Below, piece after piece: positions 9,432 through 21,122 of a stretch of DNA of 39,446 nt (its first letter is position 1; every line of letters starts with the position of its first letter). A program made the translations under genes and the position numbers. Source of the DNA: Malonomonas rubra DSM 5091 (GTDB lineage: Bacteria; Desulfobacterota; Desulfuromonadia; Desulfuromonadales; Geopsychrobacteraceae); NCBI RefSeq assembly GCF_900142125.1, contig NZ_FQZT01000019.1:1-39446 (forward strand). Reading direction: 5' to 3'. The notes beneath the pieces were generated by a model. It did not search any database. It worked only from the letters and a program-made list of their open reading frames with translations, and was not told the DNA's origin.

Positions 9432-11048
9432 ATGAAGATGGATCAACAGGAACATTTGTACGATGAATTAAGCGCGCTGCAGTTTGATAATGCATATGTT
9501 CGCGAATTGCCGGGTGACCCCGATTCAAGCAAGCGAGTCAGGCAGGTGCCGGGTGCCTGCTATTCGCTGTTTGAGCCGACACCGGTGACCCAGCCGCAGA
9601 CTGTTGCTTTCTCCCGCGAAGTGGCTGAGCAACTTGATCTGTCGCCGAACGCCTGCGAGTCGGAACAGTTCGCCCGCGTTTTCGCCGGCAACGAGCTGTT
9701 GCCCGGAATGCAGCCCTTTGCCATGTGCTACGGAGGCCACCAGTTCGGCAATTGGGCCGGGCAGCTGGGCGACGGTCGGGCAATAAACCTGGGTGAGGTG
9801 ATGAATCGGGGCGGTCAGCGTTCGGTCTTGCAGCTCAAGGGCGCCGGGCGCACACCCTATTCTCGACAGGGTGACGGATTGGCGGTGCTGCGCTCATCGG
9901 TACGAGAATTTCTCTGCTCCGAGGCGATGCACCACCTCGGCGTGCCGACCACTCGTGCCCTCAGCCTGGTGCTGACCGGCGAGCAGGTGATGCGTGACAT
10001 GTTTTACGACGGTCACCCGAAGCTGGAGCTGGGGGCAATCGTCTGCCGGGTGTCGCCGTCGTTCATCCGTTTCGGCAGCTTTCAGGTGCACAGCTGGCGG
10101 GGCGAAATCGATATCCTGAAGCAGCTGGTCGATTACTGTATCCGTACCGATTTTCCCCACCTCGGCGAACCCTCGACCGAGGTGTATTTGCAGTGGTTCA
10201 ACGAAATCTGTCGTACCACCGCCGAACTGATGGTGCACTGGATGCGCGTCGGTTTCGTCCACGGCGTGATGAACACCGACAATATGTCGATCCTCGGACT
10301 GACCATCGATTATGGTCCCTACGGCTGGCTGGAGGATTACGATCCCCGCTGGACACCGAACACCACCGATGCGCAGGGACGTCGTTATTGTTTCGGTCAA
10401 CAGCCACAGATCGCCCTGTGGAACCTGGCTCAGCTGGCCAATGCGATTTATCCGTTGATCGAAGAGGTCGAACCGCTGCAACAGGGTTTGCAAATTTACG
10501 GCGATATTTATCAGCAGGATTGGCGACAGATGATGGCCGACAAGCTTGGTCTCGGCAAGTTCAATCCGGCAACAGATGAGGATCTGGTCAAAGAGCTGGA
10601 GCAGGTGCTGATGCTGACCGAGACCGATATGACGATCTTCTATCGGCGTCTGGCAACGCTGACTGCCGGTATCGATGCCGATGATGAAGAACTGCTGCAG
10701 CCACTGCTTGCTGCCTATTATCAGCCGGATGAACTGGACGCAGACAAAACTGCCCGCATCGCCCACTGGTTACGGACTTACCTGACGCGGGCACGGCGAA
10801 GCGGCAGGCCTGATGACGTGCGAGCTGAGAAAATGAACCGGGTCAATCCGAAGTATGTGTTGCGCAACTACCTGGCGCAGCAGGCGATTGACAGGGCGGA
10901 AGGGGGCGACTTCAGCATGATCGGCGAACTGCTTGACGTTCTGCGCCAGCCATACGATGAACAGCCAGAAAAAGAAAGGTTTGCTGAAAAACGTCCGGAG
11001 TGGGCGCGCAACCGGGCCGGTTGTTCGATGCTGTCCTGCAGCTCCTGA
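9432..11048 (+). CDS. selO: Protein adenylyltransferase SelO (YdiU/UPF0061 family)
   Basis: The protein has 538 residues, near the normal bacterial SelO length. The family transfers AMP from ATP to Ser/Thr/Tyr of target proteins using an inverted kinase fold and is linked to redox homeostasis. Characteristic segments are YGGHQFGNWAGQLGDGRA, LQLKGAGRTPYSR, VHGVMNTDNMSILG (active-site Asp and Asn) and IDYGPYGWLEDYDP. The C-terminus ends GCSMLSCSS. In eukaryotic homologues the cysteine before the last two residues is selenocysteine; here its codon is TGC. The start could be 9432 or the in-frame ATG at 9438, as neither has a strong ribosome-binding site. The open frame extends upstream opposite the Fe-S gene but is not plausible there. 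msrA follows 12 bases downstream, suggesting an operon. Confidence 0.95.
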   Translation: MKMDQQEHLYDELSALQFDNAYVRELPGDPDSSKRVRQVPGACYSLFEPTPVTQPQTVAFSREVAEQLDLSPNACESEQFARVFAGNELLPGMQPFAMCYGGHQFGNWAGQLGDGRAINLGEVMNRGGQRSVLQLKGAGRTPYSRQGDGLAVLRSSVREFLCSEAMHHLGVPTTRALSLVLTGEQVMRDMFYDGHPKLELGAIVCRVSPSFIRFGSFQVHSWRGEIDILKQLVDYCIRTDFPHLGEPSTEVYLQWFNEICRTTAELMVHWMRVGFVHGVMNTDNMSILGLTIDYGPYGWLEDYDPRWTPNTTDAQGRRYCFGQQPQIALWNLAQLANAIYPLIEEVEPLQQGLQIYGDIYQQDWRQMMADKLGLGKFNPATDEDLVKELEQVLMLTETDMTIFYRRLATLTAGIDADDEELLQPLLAAYYQPDELDADKTARIAHWLRTYLTRARRSGRPDDVRAEKMNRVNPKYVLRNYLAQQAIDRAEGGDFSMIGELLDVLRQPYDEQPEKERFAEKRPEWARNRAGCSMLSCSS

Positions 11049-11060
11049 AAGGAGACGCCG

Positions 11061-11807
11061 ATGAAAAAAAACGGTTTGAGCGCCTTTATTGCGCTGTTAT
11101 TTCTTTTCCCGACACTGGCTTCCGCAGACATCCCTGCTGCCGACCATTCAATCCCGGAACTGGAGACCGCGCTCTTCGCGCTCGGCTGATTCTGGGGTTT
11201 TGACTCCCGGTTCGGGAGCTTGCCCGGCGTTTATCGCACCAATGTCGGCTATGCCGGTGGGGAAAAGGCACGGCCAAGTTACTGGTCACTCGGTGATCAT
11301 ACCGAAACCGTGCGAGTCGAGTTCGACCCGAAGCAGATCAGCTATGCTGAGTTGCTGGACATCTTTTGGGAAGCACATGATCCTGCCTACAACACCAGTA
11401 ATCGGCAGTACCGCAACGCCATCTTTTACCTCAATGATGAACAGAAACAACAGGCGGAGCAGTCTCGTGATGCCATTGCCGCTGAATTGAACCGAGCTGT
11501 TCGCACGCACATTGAAGCGGCCGGAAAATACACCCCGGCGGAAGATTACCATCAGAAATACTACCTGCGGCAAAGTAAGCGCCTGTTGGCTGAATTACAG
11601 AAAATCTATCCCGATCCGCAGCAGTTGGTCGCTTCGACGGCAGCTGCCAGAATCAACGGTTATCTCGGTTGCAACGGCAGCGTTGAACAATTGCAGGCTG
11701 AGATGGGAGCTCTCGGTTTGTCCTGGCCTTCACAGCAGCAGCTGGCCGATCACCTGTCTTCATCCTGTTCGCAGTTCCGAGGCTTTACCTGTCCGGCACC
11801 GAAATAA
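11061..11807 (+). CDS. msrA: Exported peptide-methionine (S)-S-oxide reductase MsrA, predicted selenoprotein (TGA = Sec at residue 43)
   Basis: From the ATG at 11061 (AAAGGAG 7 bases upstream) the frame reads a signal peptide (Lys-rich start, hydrophobic core 6-19, probable cleavage after ASA at 20-22). It continues to FALG, an in-frame TGA at 11187-11189, and FWGFDSRFG. In MsrA this site is GCFWG, and that Cys is the catalytic nucleophile, so the TGA falls exactly at codon 43 where Cys is expected. The rest of the family is intact after the TGA: YRTNVGYAGG, GDHTETVRVEFDP, FWEAHDP, EDYHQKYYL. Cysteines at 204, 236 and 244 could resolve the selenenyl intermediate. A SECIS-like hairpin follows the TGA. 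Length is 248 residues including Sec. The alternative, a nonsense mutation, would have to hit exactly this codon and leave everything else intact. Reading TGA as stop would leave a fragment starting near 11220 that lacks both the signal peptide and the active site. Confidence 0.88.
11187..11225 (+). promoter_or_regulatory. Putative bacterial SECIS element of msrA
   Basis: Directly after the in-frame TGA lies a perfect hairpin: CTCCC (11204-11208) pairs with GGGAG (11214-11218) around GGTTC. The loop begins 19 bases after the TGA, within the range described for bacterial SECIS elements, and starts with G as is typical. G-rich bases at 11194-11197 and C-rich bases at 11223-11225 could extend the base of the stem. 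The structure was judged by eye and was not folded computationally. Confidence 0.7.
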
Positions 11808-11812
11808 ATAGA

Positions 11813-13006
11813 TCAACCAAAAAAATAAAAAAGCACAGCCCCGCCCAGGCCGGTCAGCCCGACCACCAGCCAGGGCGGCAGCTTCCAGCGCGCCAGTAGA
11901 GTGAAGGCAGCCAGAGCGAGCAGCAGGTCGGCAAAAGAGAGAATGCCGCTGCTGCAGACAGGGTCGATAAATGCGGCCAGCAGCAGTCCGACCACGGCGG
12001 CATTGATACCGAGCAGTGCTGAGCGGACGTGCGGGTTTTTGCGTAGATCGTTCCAGAACGGCAGAATGCCAAACAGCAGCAGAAAAGACGGGGTGAAGAT
12101 TGCCAACAAGCAAAGCAGACCGCCGACCCAGCCGCTCAGCGCCAGTTGCTGGGCGCTGCCGAGGTAAGCGGAAAAGGTGAACAGTGGCCCCGGAACCGCC
12201 TGGGCGGCACCGTAACCAGCGAGGAACAGGTCTTTACCTATCCAGCCGGGATTGACCACTTCGGCCTGCAGCAGAGGCAGCACAACATGACCGCCGCCGA
12301 AAACCAGTGCGCCGGAGCGGAAAAAGCTGTCGAATAACTGGATCGGCCCGAAGCCACTCCGGGCCAGCAGAGGCAGGCCGAGCAGCAGAATAAACATCAG
12401 GCTGAGACTGATGGCTGCAGTCGTCCGACTGGGAAAGAACAGATGACTGTCTTCAGTTGATGGTTGATCTTGGCGCAGGCAGAACAGCCCGAAGAGGGCC
12501 GCGGAGAAAATCGCAGTGAGCTGCCCACTGACACCAGGAAAAGCAAAAACGAACACTGCTGCTAGAATCGACACTATTTTTCGTGTCAAATCAGGGCAAA
12601 GTTTTTGCGCCATTCCCCACACCGCCTGGGCAACTACGGCGACAGCGACAACCTTCAATCCATGCAGCCAGCCGCTCTGCACGACCTTTTCATCCAGCAA
12701 GGAGACACCGTAAGCAAAAAGAATCAGCAGGATCGCCGAAGGCAGGGTGAACCCGCACCAGGCTGCGAGCCCGCCGCGCAGGCCGGATTGGGAAATCCCG
12801 ATACCGATGCCGACCTGACTGCTGGCTGGTCCGGGGAGAAACTGGCAAAGTGCGACCAGGTCGGCGTAGCTTGATTCCTGCAACAGCTTTCGCCTGCTGA
12901 CGAACTCGTCGCGGAAGTAACCCAGGTGCGCAACCGGGCCGCCGAACGAAGTCAGCCCCAGCTTGAGAAATATTCGGAAAACCTGCCATGCAGTCAGCTT
13001 TTTCAT
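11813..13006 (-). CDS. chrA: Chromate transporter family protein (ChrA/CHR superfamily)
   Basis: This is a 397-residue multi-pass membrane protein with the two homologous halves of long-chain CHR proteins. The N-terminal half carries LGLTSFGGPVAHLGYFRDEFV and LCQFLPGPASSQVGIGIG. The C-terminal half repeats the pattern with FRSGALVFGGGHVVLPLLQ and GYGAAQAVPGPLFTFSAYLG. Known members export chromate or take up sulfate-like anions; the substrate here is not proven. The gene is convergent with msrA, with only 5 bases between the stop codons. A short CGAGG ribosome-binding site precedes the ATG at 13006. Confidence 0.9.
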   Translation of the reverse strand: MKKLTAWQVFRIFLKLGLTSFGGPVAHLGYFRDEFVSRRKLLQESSYADLVALCQFLPGPASSQVGIGIGISQSGLRGGLAAWCGFTLPSAILLILFAYGVSLLDEKVVQSGWLHGLKVVAVAVVAQAVWGMAQKLCPDLTRKIVSILAAVFVFAFPGVSGQLTAIFSAALFGLFCLRQDQPSTEDSHLFFPSRTTAAISLSLMFILLLGLPLLARSGFGPIQLFDSFFRSGALVFGGGHVVLPLLQAEVVNPGWIGKDLFLAGYGAAQAVPGPLFTFSAYLGSAQQLALSGWVGGLLCLLAIFTPSFLLLFGILPFWNDLRKNPHVRSALLGINAAVVGLLLAAFIDPVCSSGILSFADLLLALAAFTLLARWKLPPWLVVGLTGLGGAVLFYFFG

Positions 13007-17128: not shown

Positions 17129-17956
17129 ATGCCTGCCATCAGTTCCCAGCTAAGAAAAGCGGTTGAATATGCTACTTTGCACAAGCATTTTCAGCAATTT
17201 TTCAAAGTTGTTCCGGCAGTCACCGATGAGCTGATCGCAGAGGCCCAGAGGATTCGCCATAATGTTTACTGCGAGGAGCTTGGCTGGGAACCTGAGAAAA
17301 AGGACGGCAGGGAACGGGATGAATACGATCCGCATGCCATCCACTGTTTGCTGCGCAGCCAGTCGCGGGATATGTTCATCGGATGCATTCGCCTGGTTCT
17401 GCCGACCGAAAAAGGTGTTGATTTGCATCTGCCGATGCAAAACAGCTGTGGTGACAAGCTCTATCCTGGCCATCCCGACCCGGTCTCCATGGCGAACCGC
17501 GAAGTCGCAGAAGTCTGGCGTCTGGCGATCATCAAAGAGTTCCGTCGTCGTCGGCAGGATCAGGGAAGAAACATTCCCTTCCCAGAAGAAAAGCAGGCCT
17601 TGTCAGATCGGCGGAAGTTCCCTTACATCCCTGTTGCGCTTTATCTGGGCATGATGGAACTGGCCTCGCAGAATAATATCAATACCCTCTATTTCATGAC
17701 GGAACCTTTGCTGGCGCGACATTTCAGCCGCCTGGGAGGTGATCTGCAGCTGGTTGGCGAAGGCGTTGAGCATCGCGGCTTGCGCAAGCCCTACCTGATG
17801 GATGTGAACCAGGTGCGACGGAAAGCCAGCTTCGCGCTCAAACCGCTGATCAAAGTCATCCGCAACGATATCGAGCATTATAAAAAGCTGAAAGAGAAGA
17901 ACCAGCCGATTCCTTTTATGGAGGATGGCAAACTAAAAGATTTTCGTGATTTTTAA
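17129..17956 (+). CDS. PEP-CTERM/exosortase system-associated acyltransferase (GNAT-like)
   Basis: The product has 275 residues. The segment RIRHNVYCEELGWEP near residue 42 and IGCIRLVLP near 89 match the family of GNAT-related, autoinducer-synthase-like acyltransferases that accompanies PEP-CTERM/exosortase loci. The AEVWRLAIIKEFRRRR and LARHFSRLGGDLQLVGEGVEHRG stretches also fit. The biochemical reaction of this family is not established. No exosortase gene is visible here, but a PEP-CTERM substrate gene lies about 20 kb away at 37573-38277, so the genome probably carries a complete sorting system elsewhere. GGAGG lies 9 bases before the ATG. Confidence 0.83.
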   Translation: MPAISSQLRKAVEYATLHKHFQQFFKVVPAVTDELIAEAQRIRHNVYCEELGWEPEKKDGRERDEYDPHAIHCLLRSQSRDMFIGCIRLVLPTEKGVDLHLPMQNSCGDKLYPGHPDPVSMANREVAEVWRLAIIKEFRRRRQDQGRNIPFPEEKQALSDRRKFPYIPVALYLGMMELASQNNINTLYFMTEPLLARHFSRLGGDLQLVGEGVEHRGLRKPYLMDVNQVRRKASFALKPLIKVIRNDIEHYKKLKEKNQPIPFMEDGKLKDFRDF

Positions 17957-17964
17957 ATCTGTCT

Positions 17965-20124
17965 CTATTTGCCGGCTTTGCATAGAAAGGGTTCCAGCTC
18001 AGTCGCTGGTAGCGGCCTACTGAAAAGGAAGCCTTGGCCGTAGCCGCAGCCCATCTTTTGTAGCAGTTCCTGCTGCTCCTGCCTCTCAACCCCTTCAGCC
18101 AGAACATCCATCTGCATCGTCTCGGCCAGTGCGACAATTGATTTGGCGATCGACAGGTCGTTAGCGCTGTGGGTAATGTCGGCGATGAAAGAGCTGTCGA
18201 TTTTCAGCTTGGAGAGCGGGAATCGCTTCAGATAGCTGAGGGATGAATAGCCGGTGCCGAAGTCGTCGATCGCCAGTGAGATTCCCTGCCTGTGCAGCTG
18301 GTTCATGATCTTGATCGTTCCGGATACGTTTTTCATCACGGTGCTTTCGGTGATCTCCAGTTCCAGCCAGCGGGGGGGCAGCCCGGTTTCGTTCAGGATG
18401 CGGTTGACGCTGTCGAGGAAACCGCTTTGGCGGAACTGGCGGGCCGAGACATTGACGGCAATTTTCAGATCGATCAGCCCTCCGCTCTGCCAGCTGACCG
18501 CCTGCTGGCAGGCTGTCTTCAGTACCCATTCGCCCAGAGGCACAATCAACCCGGTCTCTTCCGCCAGCGGGATGAAGTCGTTCGGCGAAATCAACCCTTT
18601 TTCCGGGTGCTGCCAGCGTACCAGCGCTTCGACGCCGACCACCCGGCCGGACGCCAGCTCGTACTGAGGCTGGTAGTGCAGCACCAGTTGGTTCTGCTCA
18701 AGGGCTTTGCGCAGGTCGGCTTCCAGTAACAACCTCTCGTGGCTGTGAGCGTTCATGTCGGGGGTGTAGAACTGGTAGCTGTTGCGCCCCTGCTCTTTGG
18801 CCCGGTACATGGCAACTTCGGCGCATTTCAGCAGCTCTTCGGCGTTCGACGCATCGCCCGGGTAGGTGCTGATGCCGATACTGACCGTCAGGGGCAGATC
18901 CTGGCCACCAATCCTGATCGGCTCAGTCAGTGCTCCCTGAATCTTTTGCGCCAGCGTTGCCGCACCGACAGCATCTTTCAACTCCTCCAGGATGACCAGG
19001 AATTCGTCGCCTCCAAGGCGGGCGATGGTATCCGATTCGCGGACCTGCTTGCGCAGGCGCTCTGCCACTTCACAGAGGATCTCGTCCCCGCTGGCGTGGC
19101 CGAGGGAATCGTTGAAATTTTTGAAACGGTCAAGGTCAAGAAACAGTAACGCGATCTGGGTCGCAGAACGCCGGGACTTGTCCATCGCATGCCGCAGGCG
19201 GTCGTTCGCCCGTAACCGGTTCGGCAGGTTGGTCAAGGGATCGTGGTGAGTCAGGAACTCGAGCTGATCGTCCCGCTCGGCGATATCTTTTTCCATCGAC
19301 AGGCGATCAGTGATATCGCGTGATGATTCGACAATCCCGAGCAGGCTGCCGTCTTCCGCCAGGTAGGGTGACGCAACCAGTTCGTAGACGCGCAGCTCTC
19401 CCGACCTGGTGACATGCTGGTGGGTGACGGTGACCGTCTGCATGCTCCGCCTGACCTCCTGCAGAGGGCAGGGGTGGTCGTTGTCACTGCAGGGCGTTTC
19501 ACTATGGTGGGAGGCCTGATGACAGGTCAGGCACGACAGCTCGGCGTAGCGGCTGGCAAGGTTGTCCCGGCTCGCTTTGTTCATCAGCAGGACCTGGTAA
19601 TCGAGACCGATCACCATCAGCGGGTCGCTGACGCCGTCGATGACGGTCTGCAGGAAAGAGCGCTCTTTTTCCAGCGCGGTTTCGACGGCTTTGCGCTCGG
19701 TGATGTTGCGGAAGATTCCTCGGGTTGCCGCGGGTTGCCCGTTTTCCAAATGAACGCTGACCATCCCTTCCAGCAGGATTTTCTTTCCGTCTTTGCTCTG
19801 GAAGGTTGCCTCGAAACGACCACCGCTGCCCCGAGTCATGATTTCTCTGAAGGCCAGCTGGCAGTGTTCCAGCGATTCCGGGGCGATGACATCGAATATC
19901 GTCATCGTTGCCACTTCGTTTTCGCTGTAACCGAGGGTGTCGAGCCAGGCATTATTGACGAACAGCAGCGAACCGTCGATACCGACGCTCTGAATCAGGT
20001 CGCTGGCGTTGTCGAACAGGTCGCGCAGGCGCGCTTCGCTTTCGCGCAGCAGGGTTTCAACCGCCTGTCGCTCCGTCATCTCCTGGTTCAGCTCATCCCG
20101 TGATGCGGTCACCTCCGCAAGATC
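17965..20124 (-). CDS. PAS-PAS-GGDEF-EAL protein, C-terminal part of a frame-shifted gene
   Basis: About 719 residues follow the frame break: two PAS domains, then GGDEF and EAL domains for making and breaking cyclic-di-GMP. The cyclase signature LGGDEF is intact and the phosphodiesterase motifs EALVRW, DDFGTGYSSLSYLKRF and AEGVERQ are present, so both activities are possible. The second PAS carries a Cys/His-rich insert containing CLTCHQASHH and HPCPLQEV. The upstream sensor half (20109-21122) is in another frame, and about 40 residues of HAMP domain that should join the halves are missing. If translated at all, this part needs an internal start; the first in-frame ATG lies at 20079, within NQEMTERQ. 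I start the feature at the junction. It is probably the 3' part of a broken gene or a newly freed cytoplasmic enzyme. Confidence 0.8.
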   Translation of the reverse strand, partial: DLAEVTASRDELNQEMTERQAVETLLRESEARLRDLFDNASDLIQSVGIDGSLLFVNNAWLDTLGYSENEVATMTIFDVIAPESLEHCQLAFREIMTRGSGGRFEATFQSKDGKKILLEGMVSVHLENGQPAATRGIFRNITERKAVETALEKERSFLQTVIDGVSDPLMVIGLDYQVLLMNKASRDNLASRYAELSCLTCHQASHHSETPCSDNDHPCPLQEVRRSMQTVTVTHQHVTRSGELRVYELVASPYLAEDGSLLGIVESSRDITDRLSMEKDIAERDDQLEFLTHHDPLTNLPNRLRANDRLRHAMDKSRRSATQIALLFLDLDRFKNFNDSLGHASGDEILCEVAERLRKQVRESDTIARLGGDEFLVILEELKDAVGAATLAQKIQGALTEPIRIGGQDLPLTVSIGISTYPGDASNAEELLKCAEVAMYRAKEQGRNSYQFYTPDMNAHSHERLLLEADLRKALEQNQLVLHYQPQYELASGRVVGVEALVRWQHPEKGLISPNDFIPLAEETGLIVPLGEWVLKTACQQAVSWQSGGLIDLKIAVNVSARQFRQSGFLDSVNRILNETGLPPRWLELEITESTVMKNVSGTIKIMNQLHRQGISLAIDDFGTGYSSLSYLKRFPLSKLKIDSSFIADITHSANDLSIAKSIVALAETMQMDVLAEGVERQEQQELLQKMGCGYGQGFLFSRPLPATELEPFLCKAGK

Positions 20125-21122
20125 GGACGGGTGATGGAACGTGCCATAAGCAAGGCGATCAGTACGCCGGTCAGGCTGACCAGCAACAGGATGCTTGCGG
20201 TGGTTTTTTTCAGAAGGTGGATTGTCGACAGAGCTTCTGAAGTGTCGATTTTCGCGACCAGCCCGAGATCGAGGTCGGGCAGGTGACGCCAAACCGCGAT
20301 CAGCTCTGTGCCGAGGTAGTTGTGAGATAGTCCTGCGCCGTTTTCACCGCTGACCGCTTTCTGCATCGGAGGGATTGGCGGGCTGTCGCTGAAGGGGACG
20401 ACCTTTTTGGCTTTTTCCCCCGCTTCTCCCTGCATCGGGGTGATCAGGTGGACGAACTTGTCTTCGCCATGCTTGATGCCGAGCACCGTTTTTCCTGTTT
20501 TCCCCAGACCGGTGTTGTCGAGAAAGATCGCGCTGGCTTTTTGTAGGTCCATTTCAAAGAGCATCAGGCCGACCGCTTGCTCCTGCTGGCGGATGGCTCC
20601 AGCAACCAGAACCCCTTCCCGGTTCTGCTCTTCCGGGGAGAAATAGAAGCGGATCAGTGGGTCCCCCTGGCGGATTCGCTCAAAGAGGGACTGCTCTATG
20701 TGACTGAATACGTTGCTAACATGATTCGGTGCATGCTGGCTGTCACTCTGGTAAACAACCCGCCCCTCCAGGTCGGTCAAAACAATCAAATTATGGTTGA
20801 GATGTTGCGATTGGAAAATTTTATCCAGCTTGCTGGTTGCGGCCTGGTAGCCCGCATGGTCAGGCTGCTTTATGTGGTTGATCAGGATTGTCAGTTGCTC
20901 CGCCAGCAACTCTGCCCGGGCGACAGTGCTGAACTCATGGAGGCTGCGACTGACGAAATCCTCAATCGATTTCAGCTTGATTTCAGAGATCGCTTCGAGT
21001 GAGGCGATGCGGTTGGCGATCAACGATTGCTCAGCAGAATGGAATACCAGCAAACCGACCATTAGGGACGGGCAGACGATAAACATCAGCAGTGCAAAAA
21101 GAAATTTTTTTCTGATCGACAT
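20109..21122 (-). CDS. Cache sensor module, N-terminal part of the same frame-shifted GGDEF-EAL gene
   Basis: This part encodes 337 residues. TM1 is near 8-27, and a Cache-like periplasmic domain covers about 30-300 (LTDLEGRVVYQSD, GVLVAGAIR, GLGKTGKTVLGI). TM2 (about 308-326) leads to ARSITRPI, the usual first residues of a HAMP domain. The frame then ends after three more residues (LRR). The expected continuation, [14 protein letters not shown], lies directly downstream in another frame. As it stands the product is a membrane sensor without any output. A deletion with a frame change near 20121-20126 is the simplest explanation. Confidence 0.8.
   Translation of the reverse strand: MSIRKKFLFALLMFIVCPSLMVGLLVFHSAEQSLIANRIASLEAISEIKLKSIEDFVSRSLHEFSTVARAELLAEQLTILINHIKQPDHAGYQAATSKLDKIFQSQHLNHNLIVLTDLEGRVVYQSDSQHAPNHVSNVFSHIEQSLFERIRQGDPLIRFYFSPEEQNREGVLVAGAIRQQEQAVGLMLFEMDLQKASAIFLDNTGLGKTGKTVLGIKHGEDKFVHLITPMQGEAGEKAKKVVPFSDSPPIPPMQKAVSGENGAGLSHNYLGTELIAVWRHLPDLDLGLVAKIDTSEALSTIHLLKKTTASILLLVSLTGVLIALLMARSITRPILRR

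Follow-up and report, generated by a model that had tools for sequence, protein, structure and literature searches.

A probable selenocysteine-containing methionine sulfoxide reductase A with a helical domain and three conserved cysteines in Malonomonas rubra

The question raised by this locus is whether an in-frame TGA at the catalytic codon of a methionine sulfoxide reductase A (MsrA) gene in Malonomonas rubra is a stop or a codon for selenocysteine (Sec). The window (the whole stretch of DNA analysed, 39,446 nucleotides, contig C35 in our numbering) belongs to a genome of 3.96 Mb in 42 contigs that is rated 100% complete. On its forward strand, the frame at 11061-11807 begins with ATG at 11061, contains a single in-frame TGA at 11187-11189 (codon 43) and ends with TAA at 11805-11807. 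When this frame is translated with the TGA read as U, a 248-aa MsrA with no other in-frame stop is obtained, and the TGA falls on the catalytic codon of G-U-FWG. The original prediction had placed a TGA at the catalytic codon of a GCFWG-type site with MsrA sequence continuous on both sides, and this is confirmed as a real observation: the Pfam profile PF01625 (PMSR) runs across the TGA in one frame (residues 36-174, E 4.3e-44, 150.9 bits against a cut-off of 23.7). A second profile, PF20939, matches residues 189-221 (E 1.5e-5; score 25.1 bits, cut-off 23.7); this is MsrA_helical, whose full Pfam name is "Selenoprotein methionine sulfoxide reductase A, helical domain". By frame criteria alone (at least 25 open codons before the TGA, at least 60 after it, and limited overlap with long ORFs in other frames), a scan of the window for in-frame TGA codons listed seven frames, the msrA TGA included. 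The genome has two further MsrA genes, both without an internal stop. The features at the core of the locus are as follows:

11050..11054, forward strand: AGGAG, the likely ribosome-binding site of msrA, read from the sequence
11061..11807, forward strand: msrA, 248 aa with predicted Sec at residue 43 (translation, Pfam, and 24 relatives in the order with TGA at that codon)
11187..11189, forward strand: TGA, predicted to be read as Sec (frame, translation, and relatives in the order and beyond)
11625..11723, forward strand: PF20939 region (Pfam, and a fold match of about 206 columns to CoMsrA, the Clostridium oremlandii enzyme)

Under standard decoding translation ends at codon 43, and the TGA could in principle be a true stop, with the gene decaying or mis-sequenced and only a fragment being made. 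The relatives of the gene make this reading extremely improbable. An MsrA-like match at E 1e-20 was found in 116 of the 136 genomes of the order. In the best 25 rows (one per genome, the window included), identity ranges from 47 to 100% and each row has exactly one stop, a TGA, which lies within GUFW at 25 of 25 loci. Weaker rows among the matches listed in the order end near query residue 170-186, so the helical domain is absent from them, and a minority of them contain stops; stop-bearing rows among those listed outside the 25 include G058:C173, G102:C16, G086:C67, G048:C48 and G092:C69, the last a partial match in which the single stop is a TGA. Against a true stop, then, stand the lack of any second stop in frame, active-site residues that are invariant on both sides of the TGA, and the recurrence of TGA at this codon in 24 further loci of the order and in 66 non-repeated loci from a wider scan. 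The two intact MsrA paralogues would also leave the conservation of this copy unexplained. For the group, this conservation refutes decay and sequencing error; for the M. rubra gene we reject both, given the single stop and the TGA kept across relatives.

The wider scan took one genome per species; it gave at least 563 confirmed loci, and the analysis went on with the best 80. Within these 80, the site codon is TGA in 70, TGT in 7, TGC in 2 and unreadable in 1 (L119, whose frame is broken upstream of the site); because only the best 80 of at least 563 loci were kept, this 70:9 ratio of Sec to Cys is biased to near relatives. Four of the 80 (L049-L052) repeat loci of the order and were counted once, leaving 66 wider Sec loci. 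Two loci, L106 and L124, have one extra in-frame stop near the C-terminus, probably from the match overrunning the end of the gene. The alignment of codon 43 that the original prediction had proposed therefore returned TGA in 25 of 25 loci of the order and in 70 of the best 80 wider loci; close relatives with TGC or TGT, coupled with disabling mutations in the M. rubra copy, were not what we found. The 66 wider Sec loci fall in Chloroflexota (13), Bacillota (10), Thermodesulfobacteriota (9), Myxococcota (7), Planctomycetota (6), Nitrospirota (5), Acidobacteriota (3), Synergistota (3), Actinomycetota (3) and Spirochaetota (1), with 6 assigned to no phylum; the Myxococcota label is doubtful, as it was assigned by taxonomy to records titled Deltaproteobacteria, and most of the wider loci carry the titles of metagenome bins. 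Sec forms of MsrA thus occur in ten named bacterial phyla among these 66 non-repeated loci, so that they are not confined to a few bacteria, as the original prediction had suggested in speaking of a few algae and bacteria.

The 9 loci with Cys at the site comprise 6 archaeal and 3 bacterial ones. A quick tree of 102 rows places Cys rows among Sec rows and requires a minimum of 5 changes in the Sec/Cys label; many forks of this tree are open, its starred branches force only 1 Sec/Cys change, and the direction of change was not inferred from it. Four archaea of the Haloarcula group (L115, L118, L120 and L124) have a Cys form of the helical-domain MsrA and lie among bacterial Sec forms on the quick tree, a placement that suggests transfer and replacement of Sec by Cys.

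For a bacterial TGA to be read as Sec, a hairpin (bSECIS) just 3' of the codon would be recognised, and the original prediction described a hairpin with a G-first loop starting 15 bases after the TGA. This description holds: CTCCCG at 11204-11209 and CGGGAG at 11213-11218 enclose the loop GTT at 11210-11212, with 14 bases between TGA and stem, so that the stem begins at the 15th base, and 20 bases between TGA and loop.

11204..11218, forward strand: apical stem-loop of a putative bSECIS, 6-bp stem and loop GUU (fold, codon constraint, and the limits of PMC13188914)

The limits given in PMC13188914 are a loop of 3-9 nt, a stem of 4-16 bp, a G in the first two loop positions, a spacing of 16-37 nt and an MFE of at most -7.5. 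The msrA hairpin lies within them (stem 6, loop 3 with GUU, spacing 20, MFE -17.4 over 48 nt), and the MFE limit is passed by 25 of 25 genes of the order. Taken from the window sequence alone, the hairpin region does not fold better than its dinucleotide shuffles (z of -0.22, with 74 of 200 shuffles equalling or beating it), and an Rfam search of 10900-11900 gave no meaningful match, only two matches to eukaryote families far below the gathering score. On the fold check that had been proposed, the published limits are respected, while the msrA hairpin by itself does not rise above shuffled sequence. Since a single hairpin resembles its shuffles and Rfam is blank, a SECIS is not proven from one sequence, and the unexceptional hairpin counts as a point for a true stop. 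Support for a SECIS rests instead on the conserved TGA and on codon constraint across relatives.

That constraint is seen in which synonymous codons are used (codons are numbered from the TGA). Gly+9 is GGG in 91 of 91 Sec genes as against 3 of 9 Cys genes, and at other positions of the Sec genes GGG accounts for 22-23% of Gly codons. Of the 91 Sec genes, 90 have the loop G, the third base of codon +7, and Arg+7 is CGG in 66 of 67. Serine is always TCY at +6 (63 of 63) and always AGY at +10 (56 of 56), a choice between its two codon families that allows the arms to pair. Among single pairs, +6.2/+9.3 is formed in 91/91 Sec and 3/9 Cys genes, and +6.1/+10.1 is T-A in 61, G-C in 20, T-G in 2 and unpaired in 8. 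Many wider Sec genes have lost the outer pairs (+5.2/+10.3 is kept in 23/66 and +5.1/+11.1 in 31/66), and +6.3/+9.2 and +7.1/+9.1 also pair in 8/9 Cys genes; with outer pairs poorly kept and two core pairs shared with Cys genes, the stem discriminates only in part. Against synonymous shuffles, the mean z is -1.91 for Sec genes of the order, -1.16 for wider Sec genes and -0.36 for Cys genes, compared with -0.41, -0.26 and 0.09 in control stretches of the same three sets; 12 of 25, 11 of 66 and 1 of 9 genes, respectively, fall in the lowest 5% of shuffles. These codon, pair and shuffle figures, the Fisher values for the pairs among them, all ignore the relatedness of the genes. A tree-aware count of stem covariation was tried for two pairs and lacked power, with 1 independent pair on starred branches for one of them and 5 for the other.

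The same codons bear on two further readings of the locus, namely that the genetic code is changed so that TGA stands for an ordinary amino acid, or that ribosomes start anew beyond the TGA, perhaps at TTG 11220, from which a frame does run to 11807. A restarted product would be without the catalytic residue, yet the residues before the TGA are conserved too. As for a changed code, the selO gene just upstream ends with TGA at 11046-11048, and several relatives end msrA itself with TGA. Neither reading accounts for the hairpin, in which Gly+9 and the Ser codons are fixed in Sec genes while Gly+9 is not fixed in Cys genes. The use of TGA as a stop here and in relatives, together with the hairpin codons, led us to reject both, and we give them next to no credence.

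A Sec reading depends on the host having the machinery for it, and the search for selA, selB, selC and selD that the original prediction had called for found all four in this genome. By profile search, selA scores 587.9 bits (cut-off 267.9), selB 352.7 bits (cut-off 242.25) and selD 358.1 bits (cut-off 125), and a tRNA-Sec with anticodon TCA (UCA) scores 69.9 bits (gathering score 47); a genome devoid of this machinery, one of the two outcomes that the original prediction had named as refuting it, is thus not what we see. The genes selD, selB and selA adjoin each other on contig C29. This genome's selD has an in-frame TGA of its own (SSGUAAKIG; L017 3152-4345, reverse strand), so SelD itself is probably a selenoprotein. 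At E 1e-60, selB was found in 23 of the 25 genomes of the order that carry Sec msrA and in neither G058 nor G074, which are draft genomes, 88 and 96% complete; its apparent absence from two carriers is a further point for a true stop. Since 115 of the 136 genomes of the order have selB anyway, its agreement with msrA is weak evidence. With the machinery present, the TGA kept in relatives and the hairpin codons constrained in Sec genes, the proposal of a probable selenoprotein MsrA is well supported.

We then compared the product with known MsrA proteins. An AlphaFold2 model built from 32 aligned rows has a mean pLDDT of 90.3 and a pTM of 0.85; its least certain end is the C-terminal tail, where pLDDT drops over the final blocks from 84 to 54. 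Among solved structures, the closest both in sequence (E 4.4e-72) and in fold (E 1.6e-22) are those of CoMsrA (PDB 4LWJ, 4U66), which, like the msrA product, has Sec at the catalytic position of GUFWG. The two share a two-domain build with the helical domain, at about 44% identity and a TM-score of 0.88 by target length, and the alignment to 4LWJ runs to chain residue 205, so that the helical domain is covered. The CoMsrA active-site residues Y47, E55, Q89, Y90, H137 and Y140 (PMC4333827) map at a constant offset of 27 to Y74, E82, Q116, Y117, H164 and Y167; the first five are invariant in 25 of 25 genes of the order, and Y167 is nearly so. CoMsrA is described as a protein of 209 residues (PMC4333827) with Sec at residue 16 (PMC4479559), which leaves no room for a signal sequence, and as having one Sec and no Cys, requiring its helical domain and being recycled by glutaredoxin (PMC4333827, PMC4479559). 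In contrast, the M. rubra product has three conserved cysteines and a signal-like N-terminus, CoMsrA having neither; with three Cys after the site, it is a variant and not a CoMsrA of the 1-Cys type.

Other families differ in other ways. The 66 wider bacterial Sec genes resemble msrA in their TGA, constrained hairpin codons and matches that reach the helical domain, and differ from the msrA genes of the order in that GYLGC and CX7C occur in none of them; MsrA has also been reported as a selenoprotein in Syntrophobacter fumaroxidans (PMC1794560). By sequence match, the 9 Cys helical-domain loci encode the same two-domain protein, with TGT or TGC at the site and less constrained hairpin codons (GGG in 3/9). 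Classical Cys MsrA proteins (E. coli 1FF3 and the two other MsrA genes here) share the PF01625 catalytic domain and have Cys at the site; their PDB alignments end near profile position 153 of 230, leaving the helical domain unmatched.

Exactly three cysteines follow the site in 23 of 25 genes of the order, at +161, +193 and +201. In M. rubra these are:

11670..11672, forward strand: C204 codon, conserved in 23/25 genes of the order and aligned with CoMsrA Gly177 (alignments)
11766..11768, forward strand: C236 codon, first Cys of the C-terminal CX7C (motif scan)
11790..11792, forward strand: C244 codon, second Cys of the C-terminal CX7C (motif scan)

On the tree, the 23-row group (support 92, unstarred) excludes the two genes of the order without these cysteines, L042 and L043. 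GYLGC-type and CX7C motifs were found in 0/66 wider Sec genes and 0/9 Cys genes. Of the wider Sec genes, 41 have no Cys after the site and 14 have a single Cys close to the C-terminal end, where the next residue is P, N, V, A, G or L. Counted along the sequence alignment, C204 corresponds to CoMsrA Gly177, where the helical domains approach most closely, near the dimer interface (PMC4479559). From this position and its conservation, we infer a resolving role for C204. It is a serious possibility, short of probable, that the protein is the same selenoprotein with extra cysteines that take no part in catalysis, C236 and C244 forming a structural disulfide in an exported protein, or the cysteines binding a metal, and an external glutaredoxin-like partner serving for recycling as in CoMsrA. 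CoMsrA indeed works without Cys and is reduced by glutaredoxin, 41 of the 66 wider Sec genes manage with none after the site, and the tail that carries C236 and C244 is the part of the model that is least certain. On the other hand, a place near the dimer interface is a poor one for a purely structural C204, and the three cysteines co-occur in 23 of 25 genes of the order.

The start of the msrA product resembles, by eye, a cleaved signal peptide:

11061..11126, forward strand: signal-like N-terminal segment, residues 1-22, hydrophobic core then LASA-D (hydropathy scan, boundary by eye)

In a hydropathy scan (Kyte-Doolittle mean of at least 1.9 over a 15-mer, with the start codons of relatives as found, uncurated), a hydrophobic 15-mer upstream of the site was present in 24 of 25 genes of the order; the figure is 52 of 66 for the wider Sec genes and 2 of 9 for the Cys genes. 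The msrA product is thus probably exported or membrane-anchored.

Immediately upstream of msrA lies a gene of the SelO/YdiU family:

9543..11048, forward strand: SelO/YdiU-family gene, exact start not set (PF02696 E 7e-131; NF000658 above cut-off on 9543-11045)

Its TGA stop ends 12 bases before msrA, so a shared transcript is likely. This gene is of the Cys type, with the C-terminus CSMLSCSS. Within the flanks, a SelO relative stands beside msrA in 2 of 25 loci of the order (L019 and L020, the latter being the nearest relative), and clustering of the neighbourhoods gave no partner common to the order group in the best 25 clusters. Of the 75 wider loci, 11 have an MsrB-like ORF near msrA, 8 of them Sec loci and 3 Cys loci, as against 0 of 25 loci of the order, where the flanks are shorter; the three of these 11 ORFs that were checked all match SelR/MsrB (L098 2452-2862, L107 2405-2809 and L075 704-1126). 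This proximity fits a role in methionine sulfoxide repair. Elsewhere in the window, an acetyltransferase-like gene at 17129-17956 on the forward strand matches the Acetyltransf_5, autoinducer synthase and FeeM (N-acyl amino acid synthase) profiles, and a 337-aa ORF at 20109-21122 on the reverse strand, blank in Pfam at E 0.001, adjoins a large GGDEF-EAL-PAS gene.

Taken as a whole, the locus is very likely to encode a working Sec MsrA with a CoMsrA-type helical domain, probably exported or membrane-anchored, whose selenium is most likely resolved by cysteine. In such an enzyme, SelB with Sec-tRNA would recognise the hairpin just 3' of the UGA and Sec would be inserted at codon 43. The selenol of Sec43 would reduce methionine-S-sulfoxide in proteins; in the Desulfuromonadales group, the oxidised selenium would most likely be resolved by one of C204, C236 and C244, and the disulfide would then be handed on to a thiol reductase. 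Both the insertion of Sec at the UGA and the MsrA activity are read here from sequence. A cysteine relay in an exported selenoenzyme is suggested by conservation and by one alignment position. More tentatively still, and less likely than not in our view, the relay might run from Sec43 to C204 on the catalytic side of the helical domain, on to the C236/C244 tail and then to an envelope thiol reductase, as a recycling chain of the Desulfuromonadales' own; the Sec-only CoMsrA and the 1-Sec/3-Cys form would then be two recycling solutions on one scaffold, and in the archaeal forms Cys would have taken the place of an ancestral Sec at a later stage.

Selenoprotein MsrA already has a solved structure and a Pfam domain that bears its name, so the kind of protein is known and is less novel than the original prediction implied. 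Nine marine sequences of MsrA selenoproteins have been described (PMC2398784), MsrA stands in tables of bacterial selenoprotein families (PMC9312934, PMC13188914), and a Sargasso Sea MsrA was assigned to eukaryotes (PMC1088965); PMC12013277 and PMC8318568 yielded no text on MsrA. No exported or Cys-bearing helical-domain Sec MsrA was found in the open-access literature as judged by titles and the beginnings of abstracts. What appears to be new here is the Desulfuromonadales variant with three conserved cysteines and a probable export signal; the spread of the protein is wider than first assumed. With Sec MsrA in ten phyla and Cys forms among the Sec forms, the direction of Sec/Cys exchange becomes a testable question. 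In many anaerobes this enzyme would be overlooked by annotation that takes every TGA for a stop, and the three cysteines with the export-like start may offer a handle on how selenoenzymes are recycled outside the cytoplasm.
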